The notes under the pieces are model-generated. The model did not search any database. It saw only the letters and a program-made list of their open reading frames with translations, and was not told the origin of the DNA. This document shows positions 42,094 through 48,385 of a DNA stretch of 64,000 nucleotides, in pieces. The position numbers and the translations under genes were made by a program. Position 1 is the stretch's first letter. Each line of letters starts with the position of its first letter. This DNA comes from Polyangiaceae bacterium (lineage in GTDB: Bacteria > Myxococcota_A > Polyangia > Polyangiales > Polyangiaceae), in NCBI GenBank assembly GCA_019637265.1, contig JAHBVY010000002.1:186001-250000 (forward strand), read 5' to 3'.

Positions 42094-42498
42094 CCGCCGA
42101 GTGTCACCGGAGGCGCCACGATAAGCCAGCGCGGCGTGACCCGCGCTCGCAGATTTTGCGCTGCCTGAGCCTCATGCCCCAGCGCGCTCACGCGGCGCAG
42201 CGTCGCACCCTGGCCTCTGAAGTCTGCAACATAGTTCAGTCTCCAGGAGGCGTGGCCCGTCCCTTGACGCTCCAATGCAGAGAACGAGCCGGCGTATTGA
42301 GTACGACCCATCCAATGCTGGCAACCCGCATCCAATAGCGCGCATGAATTGCGCCACTCACCACTCGCGGCGCAACAACCGACAATCGAAATGTGAGCGC
42401 TCGCGCCCTAGACAACGCGCGCGCCGCCCCGCACACTCCGAGACGTGCTTGATCGCTCAGCTTCGCTTACTGTCACATCGAAGCCCAGGAGAAGGCCC
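42094..42498. other. Spacer before the protease module
   Basis: No supported gene. Composition is less GC-rich than the chromosome around it. The last about 50 bp (from CTTGATC at 42448 to the AGGAGAAGG ribosome site) are homologous to the leader of the truncated second copy at 47765-47818. Confidence 0.5.
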
Positions 42499-44370
42499 AT
42501 GCACCCAAGGCAGCCTCACCCCCCACGGCGACGGAGATCCCCAAGCCTCGCCCTAGCGTCCGGCTCGCTACCGCTACTCGCCGCGGCCGGCTCGCTAGCG
42601 CTGCTCGGCTCCTGCACCGCCGGCGCACCCGGCGACGCGCCCCGTGGAGACGACACCTCGTCCGCACCCCTGCGCAAGCTGAGCAGCTGTGAAGATCCCC
42701 CCCTCAAGATCGAGGACAGGCTCCTCGGCCGGCTCTGTCAGCCCAATCACACAGAGGAAAGAACCGCCGCCACCATCTGGCTGGTAGTTGAAGAAGCCGC
42801 GTTCAAGAACGTCCGAACCGAGGACCCTGTCGCCCTCTGGGAGTCCATCTCCCCCGAGTTCCGCCGAATCCGCCAACAGTTCGTGGACCGCCTGGCCGCC
42901 GACTACCCAGACGTCCACGTCGTGCCAGATCACGGCATCGATGACCCCTTTGTGACCGTAATCGCACCAGGCTCCGATCTGCTGCGGTTGGCAACCGAAC
43001 CGGGCGTAGCCAATGTCACCACATCGATCGACGAGTCCGAGGCTGAACTTGAGCCTGCTGCGAGCCACTTCAATGCTACCGAAAACTTTGGGTGGCTCAA
43101 CCTATTCGGCATCAAGGGGAACGGTGTCACCGTGTCCGTGATCGAGGGCGAGGGCTACTGGGACTCTGTAGCTAACCTCTCTGGCTACCCAACCGGAAGC
43201 TGTATCGACATCTACAACACGCACTTCGCCTGCTCAGACCCGACGCTGGCGCCGATAGGAGCGCACCCCAGGGCGGCCGCATCGATCATCCGCAACTCCG
43301 TCCCTTCCGTTGCGGAGGCAGCTCCGGAGGTGACACTCATCAAGGGAGCTTCCGAGCATGGTCTCGTGGCCGCGACGAACTGGTCACTCACGCAGGGCGC
43401 TCGCGTCTTCAATCGAAGCACGGCAGATCCCGGACATACCGCACAGAAGCCACACGAACTATATACAGACTACATCGCGATGTGGCACCCATACGCTCCA
43501 GTCATCGCTGCCTCGGCAGGCAATAAGGGAGTCGGCAATAGGGTGGGCCACCGTCTTCATAATGGCTTGATCGTTGGCGGCAGCGATGACTCGCCAATCC
43601 AGGATACGGTCGCAATCTGGAACGACAACCCGATAGATGGCTCCCAATCGGTCAACACGAATGGCACTAAGGGCTGGGAGCTACCGCACCTCGTTGCTCA
43701 AGCCAAGAAGGTGGACTGGGCAGGTGCAGCGCCAGGCACGATTGGTGCTAGTTCAGGCACCAGTTGGTCAGCGCCTCAGGTAGCCGGAGCGGCCGCCCGA
43801 ATCCTCGGCCACAACCCTACCCTCAACGGATGGAACGTAGCCGTGATGGCTGGGCTGATGGCCTCAGCGTACAACATCGACGGCCCTGAGCTTGACCTAG
43901 CGGACAACGTCGACGACCGTGATGGCGCTGGATTGCTCGATGCTCTGGCAGCTGTGCAGACCCTTGCCGCCAACGCGAAGCGCGATGGCGGCAATGCACC
44001 TGCGCAATATGGACATGACTACGAGTTCGTCACGCCCTCAAGCTTCCCTGTGGGCACGTGGCACCCCGAAATTTATTATGCCTACGTCCCCGCGGGTAAA
44101 ACGTTAAAAATCGCATCAGTCATGTTCGCGCCCGCGCTATGCTCAGACAATACCGGCCCATGCCCAGCATCACCTATCCCACTTCACTGGTTGCATGTGA
44201 CCGCCCCAGGGTTCACCAAAGTGGTGGGCAACACCTCTCAGGGCTACCAGTTTGCGGCAATCAAGAACACAACGGGTACAGACCAAACCTATACCATTCG
44301 TCTCATCATGACTAACTGGGCAGGCGCTCACCTGAGCAAGCGAGGTCTCGCATGGCACGTTCGAGGGTAG
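42499..44370 (+). CDS. Lipoprotein subtilisin-like serine protease (S8) with propeptide
   Basis: 623 residues from ATG 42499 (AGGAGAAGG ribosome site). Signal peptide with lipobox ALLGSC, an I9-type propeptide to about 185 ending LATEPGVANVTTSIDES, then an S8 domain. The nucleophile is Ser422 in GTSWSAPQVAGAA, the oxyanion Asn342 in AASAGNKG, and His256 in GAHPRAAASI replaces the usual HGTH context. At the Asp position the motif reads VSVIEGEGYWD, with Glu216/Glu218 where VIDTG is expected. The 120-residue C-terminal domain is beta-rich. Its 3' end overlaps the first lipoprotein gene by 19 bp. DNA is lower in GC than the neighbours. Confidence 0.82.
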   Translation: MHPRQPHPPRRRRSPSLALASGSLPLLAAAGSLALLGSCTAGAPGDAPRGDDTSSAPLRKLSSCEDPPLKIEDRLLGRLCQPNHTEERTAATIWLVVEEAAFKNVRTEDPVALWESISPEFRRIRQQFVDRLAADYPDVHVVPDHGIDDPFVTVIAPGSDLLRLATEPGVANVTTSIDESEAELEPAASHFNATENFGWLNLFGIKGNGVTVSVIEGEGYWDSVANLSGYPTGSCIDIYNTHFACSDPTLAPIGAHPRAAASIIRNSVPSVAEAAPEVTLIKGASEHGLVAATNWSLTQGARVFNRSTADPGHTAQKPHELYTDYIAMWHPYAPVIAASAGNKGVGNRVGHRLHNGLIVGGSDDSPIQDTVAIWNDNPIDGSQSVNTNGTKGWELPHLVAQAKKVDWAGAAPGTIGASSGTSWSAPQVAGAAARILGHNPTLNGWNVAVMAGLMASAYNIDGPELDLADNVDDRDGAGLLDALAAVQTLAANAKRDGGNAPAQYGHDYEFVTPSSFPVGTWHPEIYYAYVPAGKTLKIASVMFAPALCSDNTGPCPASPIPLHWLHVTAPGFTKVVGNTSQGYQFAAIKNTTGTDQTYTIRLIMTNWAGAHLSKRGLAWHVRG

Positions 44371-45146
44371 TCAAGAAGACGCTCAGTGCGATCGGGCTGA
44401 TGTCGCTCGTCGCGTTCGGGTGTGACAGTGACGATAACGGTCAGGGCAAGGCTGGCTCTGGCGGCAGCGCCGCAACCGGCGCAGCGGGCTCAGGCGGCGT
44501 CTCGGGGACCTCCGGCGGAGGAGCTGGTGGAACCTCAGGGCGCGCCGGCGGTGGCTTCGGCGGTGTTGCTGCGGGCGGTACCGGCGCCACTTCAGGCGGT
44601 GGCTCGGGTGGCAGCGCTGCCAACACCGCAGGTGGGCAGGCGGGCGGCGGCGCGGGTGGCAATTCTGGCGGGGGGGCCGGTGGCGCTGATTGGGCTTGCG
44701 AGCATGAGAACATTCGCTGTCCGCTAGGCGCTCTGTGCAATATGATAGGCGAGACTCCGTGCGGCACCCCGACCTCCTCTTTCGACGAAGATGGATGCCA
44801 AAGACAAACATGCTATAACGATGACGACTGCGACGCTGGCAGAGCCTGCGTGATACAGAGCATGCTCAGATCCTACTGCCTCGCCAGTTACGTCGAATCC
44901 TGCGAAATGGTGTCGGACAACACGTGCAGCTGTGTCACCGCCGCCGACTGCCACCAGGGCGGGCTCTGCATGACGGATCCACCGGCGGAGCGCTGCCCCA
45001 TCCCTGATAGCTGCGAAGAATTGAGCAGTAAGATCACCCGCATGGAGTACTCAAGCCCAGGCCTCACCGGTGACGCTCTAGCCCAACTGGAGAGCTGCCT
45101 TGCCGCCCACCAGGCTCGCGGCAGCGAGCTCAACTGCGGTGGCTAG
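44352..45146 (+). CDS. Gly-rich/Cys-rich lipoprotein, paralogue 1 of 4
   Basis: 264 residues. Signal peptide to lipobox LVAFGC (Cys24), a Gly/Ala/Ser linker of about 85 residues, then a Cys-rich domain of about 18 Cys starting WACEHENIRCPLGALC, with RACVIQSMLRSYCLASY, PPAERCP and the C-terminal LNCGG signature. The start lies 19 bp inside the end of the protease gene, indicating coupled translation. No enzymatic motif is seen; a disulfide-bonded surface domain on a flexible stalk is the likely form. It is the first of three copies on an 836-bp period. Confidence 0.78.
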   Translation: MARSRVVKKTLSAIGLMSLVAFGCDSDDNGQGKAGSGGSAATGAAGSGGVSGTSGGGAGGTSGRAGGGFGGVAAGGTGATSGGGSGGSAANTAGGQAGGGAGGNSGGGAGGADWACEHENIRCPLGALCNMIGETPCGTPTSSFDEDGCQRQTCYNDDDCDAGRACVIQSMLRSYCLASYVESCEMVSDNTCSCVTAADCHQGGLCMTDPPAERCPIPDSCEELSSKITRMEYSSPGLTGDALAQLESCLAAHQARGSELNCGG

Positions 45147-45187
45147 GGTGCAGGATGATTCGCCAACATGTCCCACCAAGGTGACGC

Positions 45188-45982
45188 ATGATACGTTCAA
45201 TAACAGTCAGTATAGCTGCCGTCATCATCGGGCTGATGTCGCTCTTCGCGTTCGGGTGTGACAGTGACGACAACGGTCAGGGCAAGGCTGGCTCTGGCGG
45301 CAGCGGCGCAACCGGAGCAGCAGCGGGCTTAGGCGGCGTCTCGGGGAGCGCCGGCGGAGGCGCAGGTGGGACCTCAGGGCGCGCCGGCGGCGGCTCCGGT
45401 GGTGCTGCGGGCGGTACCGGCGCCGCCTCAGGCGGTGGCTCGGGTGGCAGCGCTGCCAGCACCGCAGGTGGCCAGGCGGGCGGCGGCGCGGGTGGCAATT
45501 CTGGCGGGGGGGCCGGTGGCGCTGATTGGGCTTGCGAGCATGAGAACATTCGCTGTCCGCTAGGCGCTCTGTGCAGTATAGCTGACAGAGCTCCATGCGG
45601 CGCGCCCACGTCCGCTTTTGATGAAGACGGGTGTCCGAGACGCACCTGCTATAGTGATGCTGGCTGTACTGATGGTAGAGCCTGCGTGATACAGAGCATG
45701 CTCGAACCCTACTGCCTCGCCAGCTACGTTGAATCCTGCGAGATGGCGTCAGACAACACCTGCAACTGTGTCACCGCGTCTGACTGCCACAAGGGCGGGC
45801 TCTGCATGACGGAGCCGCCGGCAGAGCGCTGCCCCGTCCCTGACTCCTGCGAGGCTCTAGGGCGCAAAATCTCGATGATGGAGTACGCCCAAGATGGCCT
45901 TGAGGGAGACGTCCGCGCCCAACTGGAGAGCTGCCTTGCCGCCCACCAGGCTCGCGCCAGCGAGCTCAACTGCGGTGGCTAG
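45188..45982 (+). CDS. Gly-rich/Cys-rich lipoprotein, paralogue 2 of 4
   Basis: 264 residues, same layout as paralogue 1: signal MIRSITVSIAAVIIG with lipobox FAFGC, Gly-rich stalk, then the same Cys framework beginning WACEHENIRCPLGALC and ending LNCGG. Differences cluster in loops between cysteines (SIADRAPCGAPTSAFDEDGC), with conserved cores (RACVIQSML, PPAERCP). The start has an AAGGTGACGC ribosome site inside the copied spacer. Confidence 0.78.
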   Translation: MIRSITVSIAAVIIGLMSLFAFGCDSDDNGQGKAGSGGSGATGAAAGLGGVSGSAGGGAGGTSGRAGGGSGGAAGGTGAASGGGSGGSAASTAGGQAGGGAGGNSGGGAGGADWACEHENIRCPLGALCSIADRAPCGAPTSAFDEDGCPRRTCYSDAGCTDGRACVIQSMLEPYCLASYVESCEMASDNTCNCVTASDCHKGGLCMTEPPAERCPVPDSCEALGRKISMMEYAQDGLEGDVRAQLESCLAAHQARASELNCGG

Positions 45983-46023
45983 GGTGCAGGATGATTCGCC
46001 AACATGTCCCACCAAGGTGACGC

Positions 46024-46806
46024 ATGATACGTTCAATAACCGTCAGCAGAGCTACCGTCATCATCGGGATGATGTCGCTCGCCACGTTCGGGTGTGACAG
46101 TGACGACGACGGTCAGGGCAAGGCTGGCTCTGGCGGCAGCGGCGCAACCGGAGCAGCAGCGGGCTTAGGCGGCGCCGGCGGAGGTGCTGGGGGAGCCTCG
46201 GGGCGCGCTGGGGGTGGCTCCGGCGGCAGCGCTGCGGGCGGTACCGGCGCCGCTTCGGGCGGTGGCTCGGGTGGCAGCGCCGCGAGCACCGCAGGTGGCC
46301 AGGCGGGCGGCGGCGCGGGTGGCTCAGAGTGTAACGGAGGCGCCGCTGGGGACGGCTCGGGCGGCGCCTGCAACGGTAGGTACAATTGTTCTCTCGAGAG
46401 CCTATGCTGCGTGGAGAACTGCGGGGCACCCACCTCGTACTTCGACGCCGATGGCTGTTCTCGAAGCGCCTGCCGGACCGATAACGACTGCCGTGATGGC
46501 AGGACCTGCGTCATCCAGAGCATGCTCCGCTCGGGTTGCATCGCGAGCAACGCTGATGGGTGCTGGCGGTCTGATGATGGCTCTTGTAGCTGCACCTTCA
46601 CGGCAGACTGCCACCCAGGCGGACTATGCCTCACCGATCCACCCGCCGAGCGCTGCCTGATACCCAGTTCTTGCGATGAGCTGCGGCGCAAGATTGACGG
46701 GTTGCTAGCGTCCCAACGTTACCTTGATGGCGATACGCTCGCCCAAGTCGAGAGCTGCCTTGCCGCCCACCAGGCGCGCGTCAGCGAGCTCAACTGCGGC
46801 GGCTAG
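46024..46806 (+). CDS. Gly-rich/Cys-rich lipoprotein, paralogue 3 of 4
   Basis: 260 residues, lipobox LATFGC. The stalk is as in paralogue 2, but the Cys domain is more diverged: it opens GGACNGRYNCSLESLCCVENCG and keeps RTCVIQSMLRSGC, CSCTFTADC, PPAERC and the LNCGG end. The pattern of conserved cysteines with changed loops is that of diversifying surface paralogues. Confidence 0.78.
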   Translation: MIRSITVSRATVIIGMMSLATFGCDSDDDGQGKAGSGGSGATGAAAGLGGAGGGAGGASGRAGGGSGGSAAGGTGAASGGGSGGSAASTAGGQAGGGAGGSECNGGAAGDGSGGACNGRYNCSLESLCCVENCGAPTSYFDADGCSRSACRTDNDCRDGRTCVIQSMLRSGCIASNADGCWRSDDGSCSCTFTADCHPGGLCLTDPPAERCLIPSSCDELRRKIDGLLASQRYLDGDTLAQVESCLAAHQARVSELNCGG

Positions 46807-46865
46807 GGCGCCCCCCTCAAACTAGTCTGCTCACATGACGAACTGAGACCCTCGCCCGAAGGCGC

Positions 46866-46894
46866 TTGACAAGGAAGGGGCGCTAAAGTACCAT
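46866..46894 (+). promoter_or_regulatory. Candidate promoter of paralogue 4
   Basis: TTGACA (46866-46871), 17-bp spacer, TACCAT (46889-46894). It lies about 115 bp before ATG 47011, in the spacer after paralogue 3. Confidence 0.5.
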
Positions 46895-47010
46895 CAAGCC
46901 CGTCCATCAAGCCCTCGCTGCGGAGAGCGTTGGCCTAAGCGGCGTCCCCATCTGAAGGGTCCTGTGTGGGCCAGCTGGGCGGGCAAGTTCACGGCTTAGG
47001 GAGGTCTTGC

Positions 47011-47661
47011 ATGGTACGTTCAGTGTTTGCTTGGTCGGTGCTCGGTGCCGGGGCCTTATCGCTCGCCACGCTCGGGTGTGACAGCGAGGACGACGGAGGC
47101 AAAACCGGTTCAGGGGGCAGCGCTGCCTCCTCCAGCGGCGCGTCAGGCGGCACCGCTGGAGGCGGCGCGGGCGGTACGTCGGGGGGCGGCGCGGGTGGGA
47201 TTTCCGGAGGCGGTTCAGGCGGGGCCTGCGATGGTAAGCTAGGCTGCTCTCTGGAGCTCCTGTGTAGCGCCTATTCATGTGGTACAGCGACGTCACGCTT
47301 CGATGCAGACGGTTGCGCGAGGGGCCTGTGCTACACGGACGACGACTGCAGCGACGGCAGATCGTGCGTGATTCAAGCCATGCTGACCACTGAGTGCTTC
47401 GCTTCCACGATTGAATACTGTGGTGTCTACGACAACTCTTGCGGTTGCACCGTCAGCGCGGATTGCAATTTGGGCGGACTGTGTGTGGCGGAGCCGCCCG
47501 CCGAGCGGTGCCCTGTTCCGAGCACTTGTGATGAGCTGACGAGTAAGATTGAACAGTTGGAGCGCGCGGTGAATAGACACCCAGAGCCCGCGAAAGCGCA
47601 AGTTGAGGCGTGCCTGACGGCTCATGAGGAGCGCGCAGCCGAACTCAACTGCGGCGGCTAG
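47011..47661 (+). CDS. Gly-rich/Cys-rich lipoprotein, paralogue 4 of 4
   Basis: 216 residues from ATG 47011 (TTAGGGAGG ribosome site). Lipobox LATLGC, a shorter stalk, then GACDGKLGCSLELLC, RSCVIQAMLTTEC, CGCTVSADC, PPAERCP and the LNCGG end. It is more distant and has its own spacer and promoter, so it predates the 836-bp amplification. Confidence 0.78.
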   Translation: MVRSVFAWSVLGAGALSLATLGCDSEDDGGKTGSGGSAASSSGASGGTAGGGAGGTSGGGAGGISGGGSGGACDGKLGCSLELLCSAYSCGTATSRFDADGCARGLCYTDDDCSDGRSCVIQAMLTTECFASTIEYCGVYDNSCGCTVSADCNLGGLCVAEPPAERCPVPSTCDELTSKIEQLERAVNRHPEPAKAQVEACLTAHEERAAELNCGG

Positions 47662-47764
47662 TGCCTCGGCGGTGCTCACCGCGTCCGCGCCGAGATGGTA
47701 GATAGAAGACGCGAGCCCTCCCCCGCCTAGACAGCAGACGCGCAGCTACACACACTGCGGATCG

Positions 47765-47818
47765 CTTGAATGCCTTAGAGAGTTTGCAGTACTACATCGA
47801 GCCCCAGGAGAAGAGAAC
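47765..47818 (+). promoter_or_regulatory. Leader homologous to the protease leader
   Basis: TTGAAT (47766-47771), 18-bp spacer, TACTAC (47790-47795), then CATCGAG and CCCAGGAGAAG before the ATG. The same order, CTTGA, ACATCGA and CCCAGGAGAAG, precedes the protease gene at 42448-42498. Confidence 0.5.
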
Positions 47819-48337
47819 ATGCACCCCACCCAACACCCCGCTCGGCGAAGGCGCTCAGCGCTCTTCCTCGCACCCCTCACCTGCTCCCTAGCGCTGCTAG
47901 GCGGCTGCGCCGTCGACGCTGACGAAGGCAAGCCCAGCGACACCTCCACTACTCAGCTGAGCCCCCTCACCTGTGAGGTGGCACCTGAGAAGATGGCTGA
48001 GGAGCTATTCAACCGCGTTTGTGAGCCGGGCAATGAGGATAGCCTGTTCGCCGCGACGGTCTGGCTCACCATCGATGGCACGGTGTTCCTGGACCTCCCG
48101 GGGGATGATCCAGTCGCTTTGGCGGACACAGCGGCGGCCGAGTTCAGGCGCGTTCACGAGGACTTCGTCGACCTCCTGACGGCGGAGTACCCTGAGGTGC
48201 AGATCCCACCAGGCCAAGGCGGGGACCCGTTCGTGACCATCATCGCGCCGGGCATGGATCTGCTTCAGATCACGAGGGTGCCAGGTGTGGACACCGTCAG
48301 CATTTCCATCGACGAATCGGCGGCAGGCTACCAATAG
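47819..48337 (+). pseudogene. Protease propeptide remnant (second copy of the S8 gene, catalytic domain deleted)
   Basis: 172 residues. It aligns with the first about 190 residues of the S8 protease: MHP start and RRRR, lipobox SLALLGGC, ATVWLTIDGTVF, DPVALADTAAAEFRR, DFVDLLTAEYPEV, DPFVTIIAPGMDLLQI, VPGVDTVSISIDES. It then ends at TAG exactly where the catalytic domain should begin. The stop is followed in the same frame by the end of a lipoprotein gene (next entry). A decayed copy is the simplest reading, but a free propeptide could still act as a protease inhibitor, so the product may be functional. Confidence 0.75.
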
Positions 48338-48385
48338 CTCACCGCTCGCCAAACGCGCGCTCGCGAGCTCAACTGCGGCGGCTGA
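48338..48385 (+). pseudogene. Last 15 codons of a fifth lipoprotein paralogue
   Basis: In frame with the propeptide remnant, after its TAG, the codons read LTARQTRARELNCGG and TGA. This equals the C-terminal LAAHQARASELNCGG of the four intact lipoproteins. A deletion therefore joined the propeptide of a second protease copy to the end of the lipoprotein gene that followed it. Confidence 0.8.

Follow-up and report, generated by a model that had tools for sequence, protein, structure and literature searches.

A subtilase-fold protease with an altered catalytic triad and its neighbouring stalked lipoproteins in Myxococcota

Genes and features of the locus

The window was a 64,000-nucleotide stretch of the genome of a Polyangiaceae bacterium (contig JAHBVY010000002.1, positions 186,001–250,000). 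The region studied in it contained an S8-like protease gene, four paralogous lipoprotein genes (L1–L4) and a reduced second copy of the protease gene (Table 1). The leader was common to both protease copies and was followed in each by ATGCACCC.

Table 1. Positions of the genes, catalytic codons and remnant features in the window
Feature	Positions	Strand	Basis or remarks
Leader, RBS-like, CCCAGGAGAAG	42470–42498	+	Direct sequence; repeated at 47790–47818 before second copy
S8-like protease, predicted lipoprotein	42499–44370	+	PF00082, family alignments, catalytic columns, KP-43 profile, Foldseek
Glu216 codon, site of S8 catalytic Asp	43144–43146	+	Alignments, KP-43 comparison, catalytic columns
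Catalytic His256 codon	43264–43266	+	Catalytic columns
Catalytic Ser422 codon (GTSWSAP)	43762–43764	+	Catalytic columns
L1	44352–45146	+	Lipobox Cys24; Gly stalk ~25–112; Cys-rich head 113–264
L2	45188–45982	+	80% identical to L1; 41-bp spacer same as before L3
L3	46024–46806	+	Lipoprotein paralogue
L4	47011–47661	+	Shorter stalk; sigma70-like site 5' at 46866–46894
Second protease copy, signal/lipobox and propeptide, ends TAG	47819–48337	+	Alignment to intact copy
Last 15 lipoprotein codons LTARQTRARELNCGG and TGA	48338–48385	+	In frame with propeptide; tail comparison

The protease was composed of 623 residues, with a lipobox cysteine (Cys39), a propeptide region (residues ~60–183), a subtilase domain and, at the C terminus, a beta domain (residues ~500–623) that ended in HLSKRGLAWHVRG, not in KLIKK. 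Alignment placed the catalytic-site residues at E216, H256, N342 and S422. A sequence-only reading of this DNA had described an S8 protease with an I9 propeptide. The first part was borne out by PF00082 (34 bits against a cut-off of 21.8), which matched residues 289–463 only. The second part was not, as neither this propeptide nor that of the reduced copy matched any model in the Pfam search, I9 included, although residues 88–175 of the AF2 model followed the order beta-alpha-beta-alpha-beta at medium confidence. The profile match to KP-43 (PDB code 1wmd) included the C-terminal jelly roll, and the Foldseek matches of the protease model were S8 folds; the model was poor (pLDDT 54), so that the S8 fold alone was taken from it. 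Mycosin (TIGR03921) was rejected as an identity, with 25 bits against a cut-off of 279.

The ATG of L1 was located in another frame, 19 nt ahead of the protease end, and the two genes thus overlapped, as the sequence-only reading had stated. In each of the four lipoproteins, a lipobox was followed by a Gly stalk and then by a Cys-rich head with an ELNCGG end. The spacers before L2 (45147–45187) and L3 (45983–46023) were identical over 41 nt, and the synonymous divergence (dS) of the stalks was lower than that of the heads both between L1 and L2 (0.16 versus 0.64) and between L1 and L3 (0.46 versus 2.65). From the spacers and the silent-site likeness of the stalks, L1–L3 appear to have arisen by tandem duplication, with the stalks homogenised and the heads diverged, a pattern that suggests recent duplication or gene conversion. 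The lipoprotein heads, judged by substitution rates such as those between L1 and L2 (dN 0.15, dS 0.64), are under purifying selection. The head of L1 was predicted with a pLDDT near 90. Comparison with solved folds by Foldseek and VIA-align gave nothing convincing (best Foldseek E 2.0); the VIA-align rows covered mainly a helical hairpin, and a new fold is not thereby shown. Searches of Pfam and NCBIfam matched the lipoproteins to no inhibitor family. The promoter-like site upstream of L4 (TTGACA-17-TACCAT) was weak, as two such sites occurred in the region against 0.8 expected.

The second copy aligned with the intact propeptide at 44% over 138 amino acids (E 3e-35). At the codon level the agreement was 48% over 172 codons, with dN 0.44 and dS 1.28, or a dN/dS of ~0.34 for the whole divergence. 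After the TAG, the same frame ran through the lipoprotein tail to a TGA at 48383–48385. The 45 nt of LTARQTRARELNCGG were identical to the tail of L3 at 36 positions, a level reached among the 127,910 45-mers on both strands of the window only by the four lipoprotein tails and the remnant tail itself. By this comparison, the LNCGG tail is homologous to the lipoprotein tails, in agreement with the sequence-only reading. That reading had also held that a single internal deletion of a protease–lipoprotein pair explains the segment exactly. The alignments are consistent with such a deletion, which is the simplest account, but do not prove it; other accounts are possible, because the TAG aligns with a Cys codon (TGC) of the lipoproteins and the junction cannot be fixed. 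The survival of the lipoprotein tail suggests that the deletion was recent.

A third fragment was found at a contig edge of the same genome (L053, positions 1–1034; G000:C19). It was 81% identical to protease residues 514–582 and was preceded by the terminal part of a Gly-stalk protein with the final residues ELSCE.

Altered catalytic triad of the protease family

PF00082 was matched by all 32 family members, with E values up to 0.1. At the site aligned to the catalytic Asp of KP-43, Glu was present in 22 of the 25 members with letters there, and the remaining three had Ala, Leu or Gln. The catalytic His was kept in 25 of 26 members and the Ser in 32 of 32, and the oxyanion Asn was lost in five. 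Control S8 genes aligning through the Asp site mostly had Asp, and one (L142) had a clear Glu. Seven further weak S8 matches were considered as distant family members and rejected, since all seven aligned with Asp.

The S8 triad is D-H-S and the S53 triad is E-D-S (PMC9549277). The E-H-S arrangement of the family fits neither, and on these alignments the family is classed as related to S8 by fold but set apart from the canonical D-H-S subtilases by its altered triad. Sedolisins (S53) share the subtilisin-like fold and a Glu in the catalytic centre, but their triad is Glu-Asp-Ser (PMC9549277), whereas here the His was kept and Glu occupied the Asp site. KP-43 shares the catalytic fold, the His and Ser motifs and a C-terminal jelly-roll-like domain; it differs from the present proteases, which had Glu for the triad Asp, a paired lipoprotein and, in the branch of the window, a lipobox. 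A literature search, with most subscription journals outside it, found no Glu-His-Ser subtilisins. Judged from sequence, the Glu could confer weak or no protease activity.

Pairing of protease and lipoprotein genes across Myxococcota

Homologues were sought in related genomes by single-protein searches and then by family alignment searches. About 37 homologous loci, fragments included, were found in several Myxococcota families; a narrower alignment profile search of genome contigs found 9. Full-domain members scored above 324 bits with the family profile, the outlier L142 scored 117 and other S8 proteins scored below 67. Named records with homologues included the Polyangiaceae MAGs ACE_MYX3 and OFTM3, a groundwater Myxococcales MAG and Sorangium cellulosum So ce26. 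One record labelled Candidatus Eisenbacteria (L166, JADLGX010000558.1) had the same arrangement, a Gly-stalk lipoprotein gene overlapping that of a protease with 56% identity, attributable to transfer or mis-binning.

A strict detector, which required a lipobox lipoprotein gene whose start lay between −60 and +150 nt relative to the protease stop, was positive for 20 of 30 scorable protease copies and for 2 of 40 control S8 genes from related genomes (Fisher p = 3e-8), with paralogues counted separately and the genomes related, so that the counts are non-independent. One of the two control matches was L142, the Glu-type outlier, with an overlapping Cys-rich lipoprotein. The background among other long ORFs was 25 of 354. 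Inspection by eye added six copies (L099, L109, L111, L113, L118, and L122) and brought those with a lipoprotein gene directly downstream to 26 of 30 (−31 to +134 nt); these additions were made for family copies and not for controls, and the strict figures are therefore the fair comparison. The remaining four copies (L102, L117, L119, and L125) had no clear lipoprotein neighbour. Overlap was common, up to ~31 nt, and recurred between genera (−4 in L054, −28 in L055, −4 in L057, and −31 in L061), which suggests coupled translation of two exported proteins. The functional unit proposed by the sequence-only reading was thus well supported, and protease and lipoproteins co-occurred in other genera and families. 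With high confidence, the protease and lipoprotein form a two-gene module that is conserved across Myxococcota and acts as a unit.

The association was partial in the reverse direction: the closest set B heads adjoined the protease and more distant ones did not. Lipoprotein genes were kept beside truncated proteases (L109–L111), and an orphan head (L062) was found in the genus of the window source. At one of these loci (L109, ~1800–2990; G064:C305), a truncated protease 3' end and an intact lipoprotein gene abutted nucleotidyltransferase/HEPN-like frames by eye. The ACE_MYX3 proteases with set A lipoproteins (L054, 7570–9635; L055, 6989–8374) were frame-split or without the propeptide part, and may be pseudogenes or assembly errors.

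The lipoproteins fell by BLAST into mutually unrecognisable sets: set A (window lipoproteins, L054, and L055), set B/C (L057, L060, L109, L112, L114, L115, L118, and L120), with the core CW.PP..YC ... CC.F..SC.PCGW..C, set D (L099–L101 and L110), and many singletons. Pfam, NCBIfam and PADLOC gave no function and no useful family match save for two members, one with an FGE-sulfatase domain (L122) and one with Dictyostelium-type Cys repeats, which from the sequences is probably L122 or L113. The NCBIfam model Myxo_Cys_RPT (TIGR04201) did not reach its cut-off, with 2 of 31 lipoproteins matched at a best E of 0.018. A defence role was dropped, as the PADLOC subtilase match was weak and generic. 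Set B/C lipoproteins occurred in both deep branches of the protease, so the pairing is old and, on this distribution, probably ancient. Sets A and B had in common short loops that were bounded by Cys and contained a Pro-Pro pair (CMTDPPAERC and CWDPPLHYC), which we take, as a lead only, to recall Bowman-Birk loops.

Two variations on the pair were observed. In G043 and G172, two genomes of one genus, the protease ran on into Cys-rich repeats (L103 and L105–L107), and the So ce26 protease had fused FG-GAP repeats and no lipoprotein neighbour. In two genera, G016 and G064, a set A head stood directly behind a trypsin-like lipoprotein protease (L067, 1024–3066; L213). These trypsin-like proteases were 48% identical to each other and had TAAHC and GQSGS/GHSGS motifs, on which the assignment rests, the Pfam trypsin score being 17.4 against a cut-off of 20.6.

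Possible roles of the lipoprotein

The protease and lipoprotein very probably work together, the lipoprotein perhaps as a guard or a targeting subunit of the enzyme. In the proposed arrangement, an exported, often lipid-anchored protease of subtilase fold with a Glu-His-Ser triad would be accompanied by a cognate lipoprotein, with a head rich in disulphides on a flexible Gly stalk, from an overlapping or directly 3' gene. The two would be co-translated in near-equal amounts and meet at the cell surface, where the head would bind the protease and shield the producer cell, the propeptide having guarded the enzyme during export. L2–L4 would represent duplicated heads with shifted specificity.

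In Myxococcus xanthus, the subtilisin-like protease PopC is held by a co-encoded partner, PopD. Unlike the components of the present module, PopC stays in the cytoplasm until it is secreted, and PopD is not known as a Cys-rich lipoprotein. By description and gene arrangement, the nearest described analogue appears to be the KLIKK/potempin operons of Tannerella forsythia. In that species, each KLIKK protease has a small lipoprotein encoded next to it, these lipoproteins being unrelated to one another (PMC4404884), and potempin lipoproteins have been reported as inhibitors of the co-expressed protease (PMC7296668). Both systems consist of exported proteases, some of them S8, each with an adjoining gene for a small lipoprotein, and the lipoproteins lack significant mutual similarity. 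However, potempin genes precede the protease gene whereas the lipoprotein genes here follow and overlap it, and KLIKK proteases have a T9SS-type C-terminal domain. The sequence-only reading had known of no described system of this form. No description of the module itself was found in the literature search, which had most subscription journals outside it, but the KLIKK/potempin operons are a close analogue (PMC4404884, PMC7296668). A surface protease with a cognate lipoprotein is thus of a known kind, here in a new form marked by an unusual triad and unclassified lipoprotein sets.

The leading reading is that the lipoprotein head is a membrane-anchored, potempin-like inhibitor of its cognate surface protease. 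It is favoured by the heterogeneous heads on a conserved enzyme, the heads kept beside broken proteases, the two serine-protease folds and the potempin precedent; a set A head behind a trypsin-like protease is as expected of a serine-protease partner. Against it were counted the missing matches to inhibitor families and solved folds, the four copies without a clear lipoprotein and the Glu at the Asp site. Because the fusions point towards targeting, a probability of only about 0.4 was given to the inhibitor reading.

It is possible, if somewhat unlikely, that the lipoprotein is instead an accessory targeting or adhesion subunit, whose stalked head attaches to a ligand of the surface or of prey, so that the protease is kept near its substrate. 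The neighbour-less proteases with fused Cys-rich (G043 and G172) or FG-GAP (So ce26) repeats fit this role better than inhibition, and the long Gly stalk, the several paralogous heads in one cluster and the pairing of the head with an unrelated protease fold are in line with it. However, the fused repeats may not be homologous to the lipoprotein heads, and a free, separately lipidated protein would be a poor tether unless it bound the protease.

A role of the lipoprotein as substrate is doubtful. The protease would trim or shed the head from the stalk and free a surface adhesin or signal; the two proteins are co-encoded and share a location, the flexible Gly stalk could be an exposed cleavable linker, and the heads diversify rapidly. 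Yet a substrate needs neither fixed stoichiometry nor gene overlap, lipoproteins persist beside truncated proteases and alone (L062 and L109–L111), set A heads are found with proteases of two folds that differ in specificity, and no conserved cleavage motif was seen.

A still less likely reading is that the subtilase fold of the protease only binds and does not catalyse, the pair being a surface receptor or scaffold. The changes at the Asp site and the loss of the oxyanion Asn agree with this, but the Ser, the His and the propeptide were retained, and a Ser-His-Glu triad is active in other hydrolases such as acetylcholinesterase. An inherited accident of neighbourhood in a few lineages is very improbable, for although the sample was phylogenetically clustered with paralogues counted separately, the pairing spans several families, involves unrelated lipoprotein sets and a second protease fold, and also takes the form of fusions.

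A bolder form of the inhibitor reading is unlikely as a whole. It would comprise phylum-wide surface proteases with a Ser-His-Glu form of the subtilisin triad, each paired with a private lipoprotein inhibitor that is rich in disulphides, diversifies fast and has an unmatched fold; the same head would also have come to guard a trypsin-like protease, and anchored propeptides that stand alone, such as that of the second copy (47819–48337), would serve as extra inhibitors in trans.

The module represents an unannotated protease–lipoprotein system across a phylum of predatory and social bacteria. A partner is predicted for each protease, and the lipoprotein sets lie outside all family models. The protease family provides a natural test of whether a subtilase triad can work with Glu in place of Asp. 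Should the heads prove to be inhibitors, the idea of a surface protease paired with a private inhibitor would reach beyond one oral bacterium to a large phylum of the environment.
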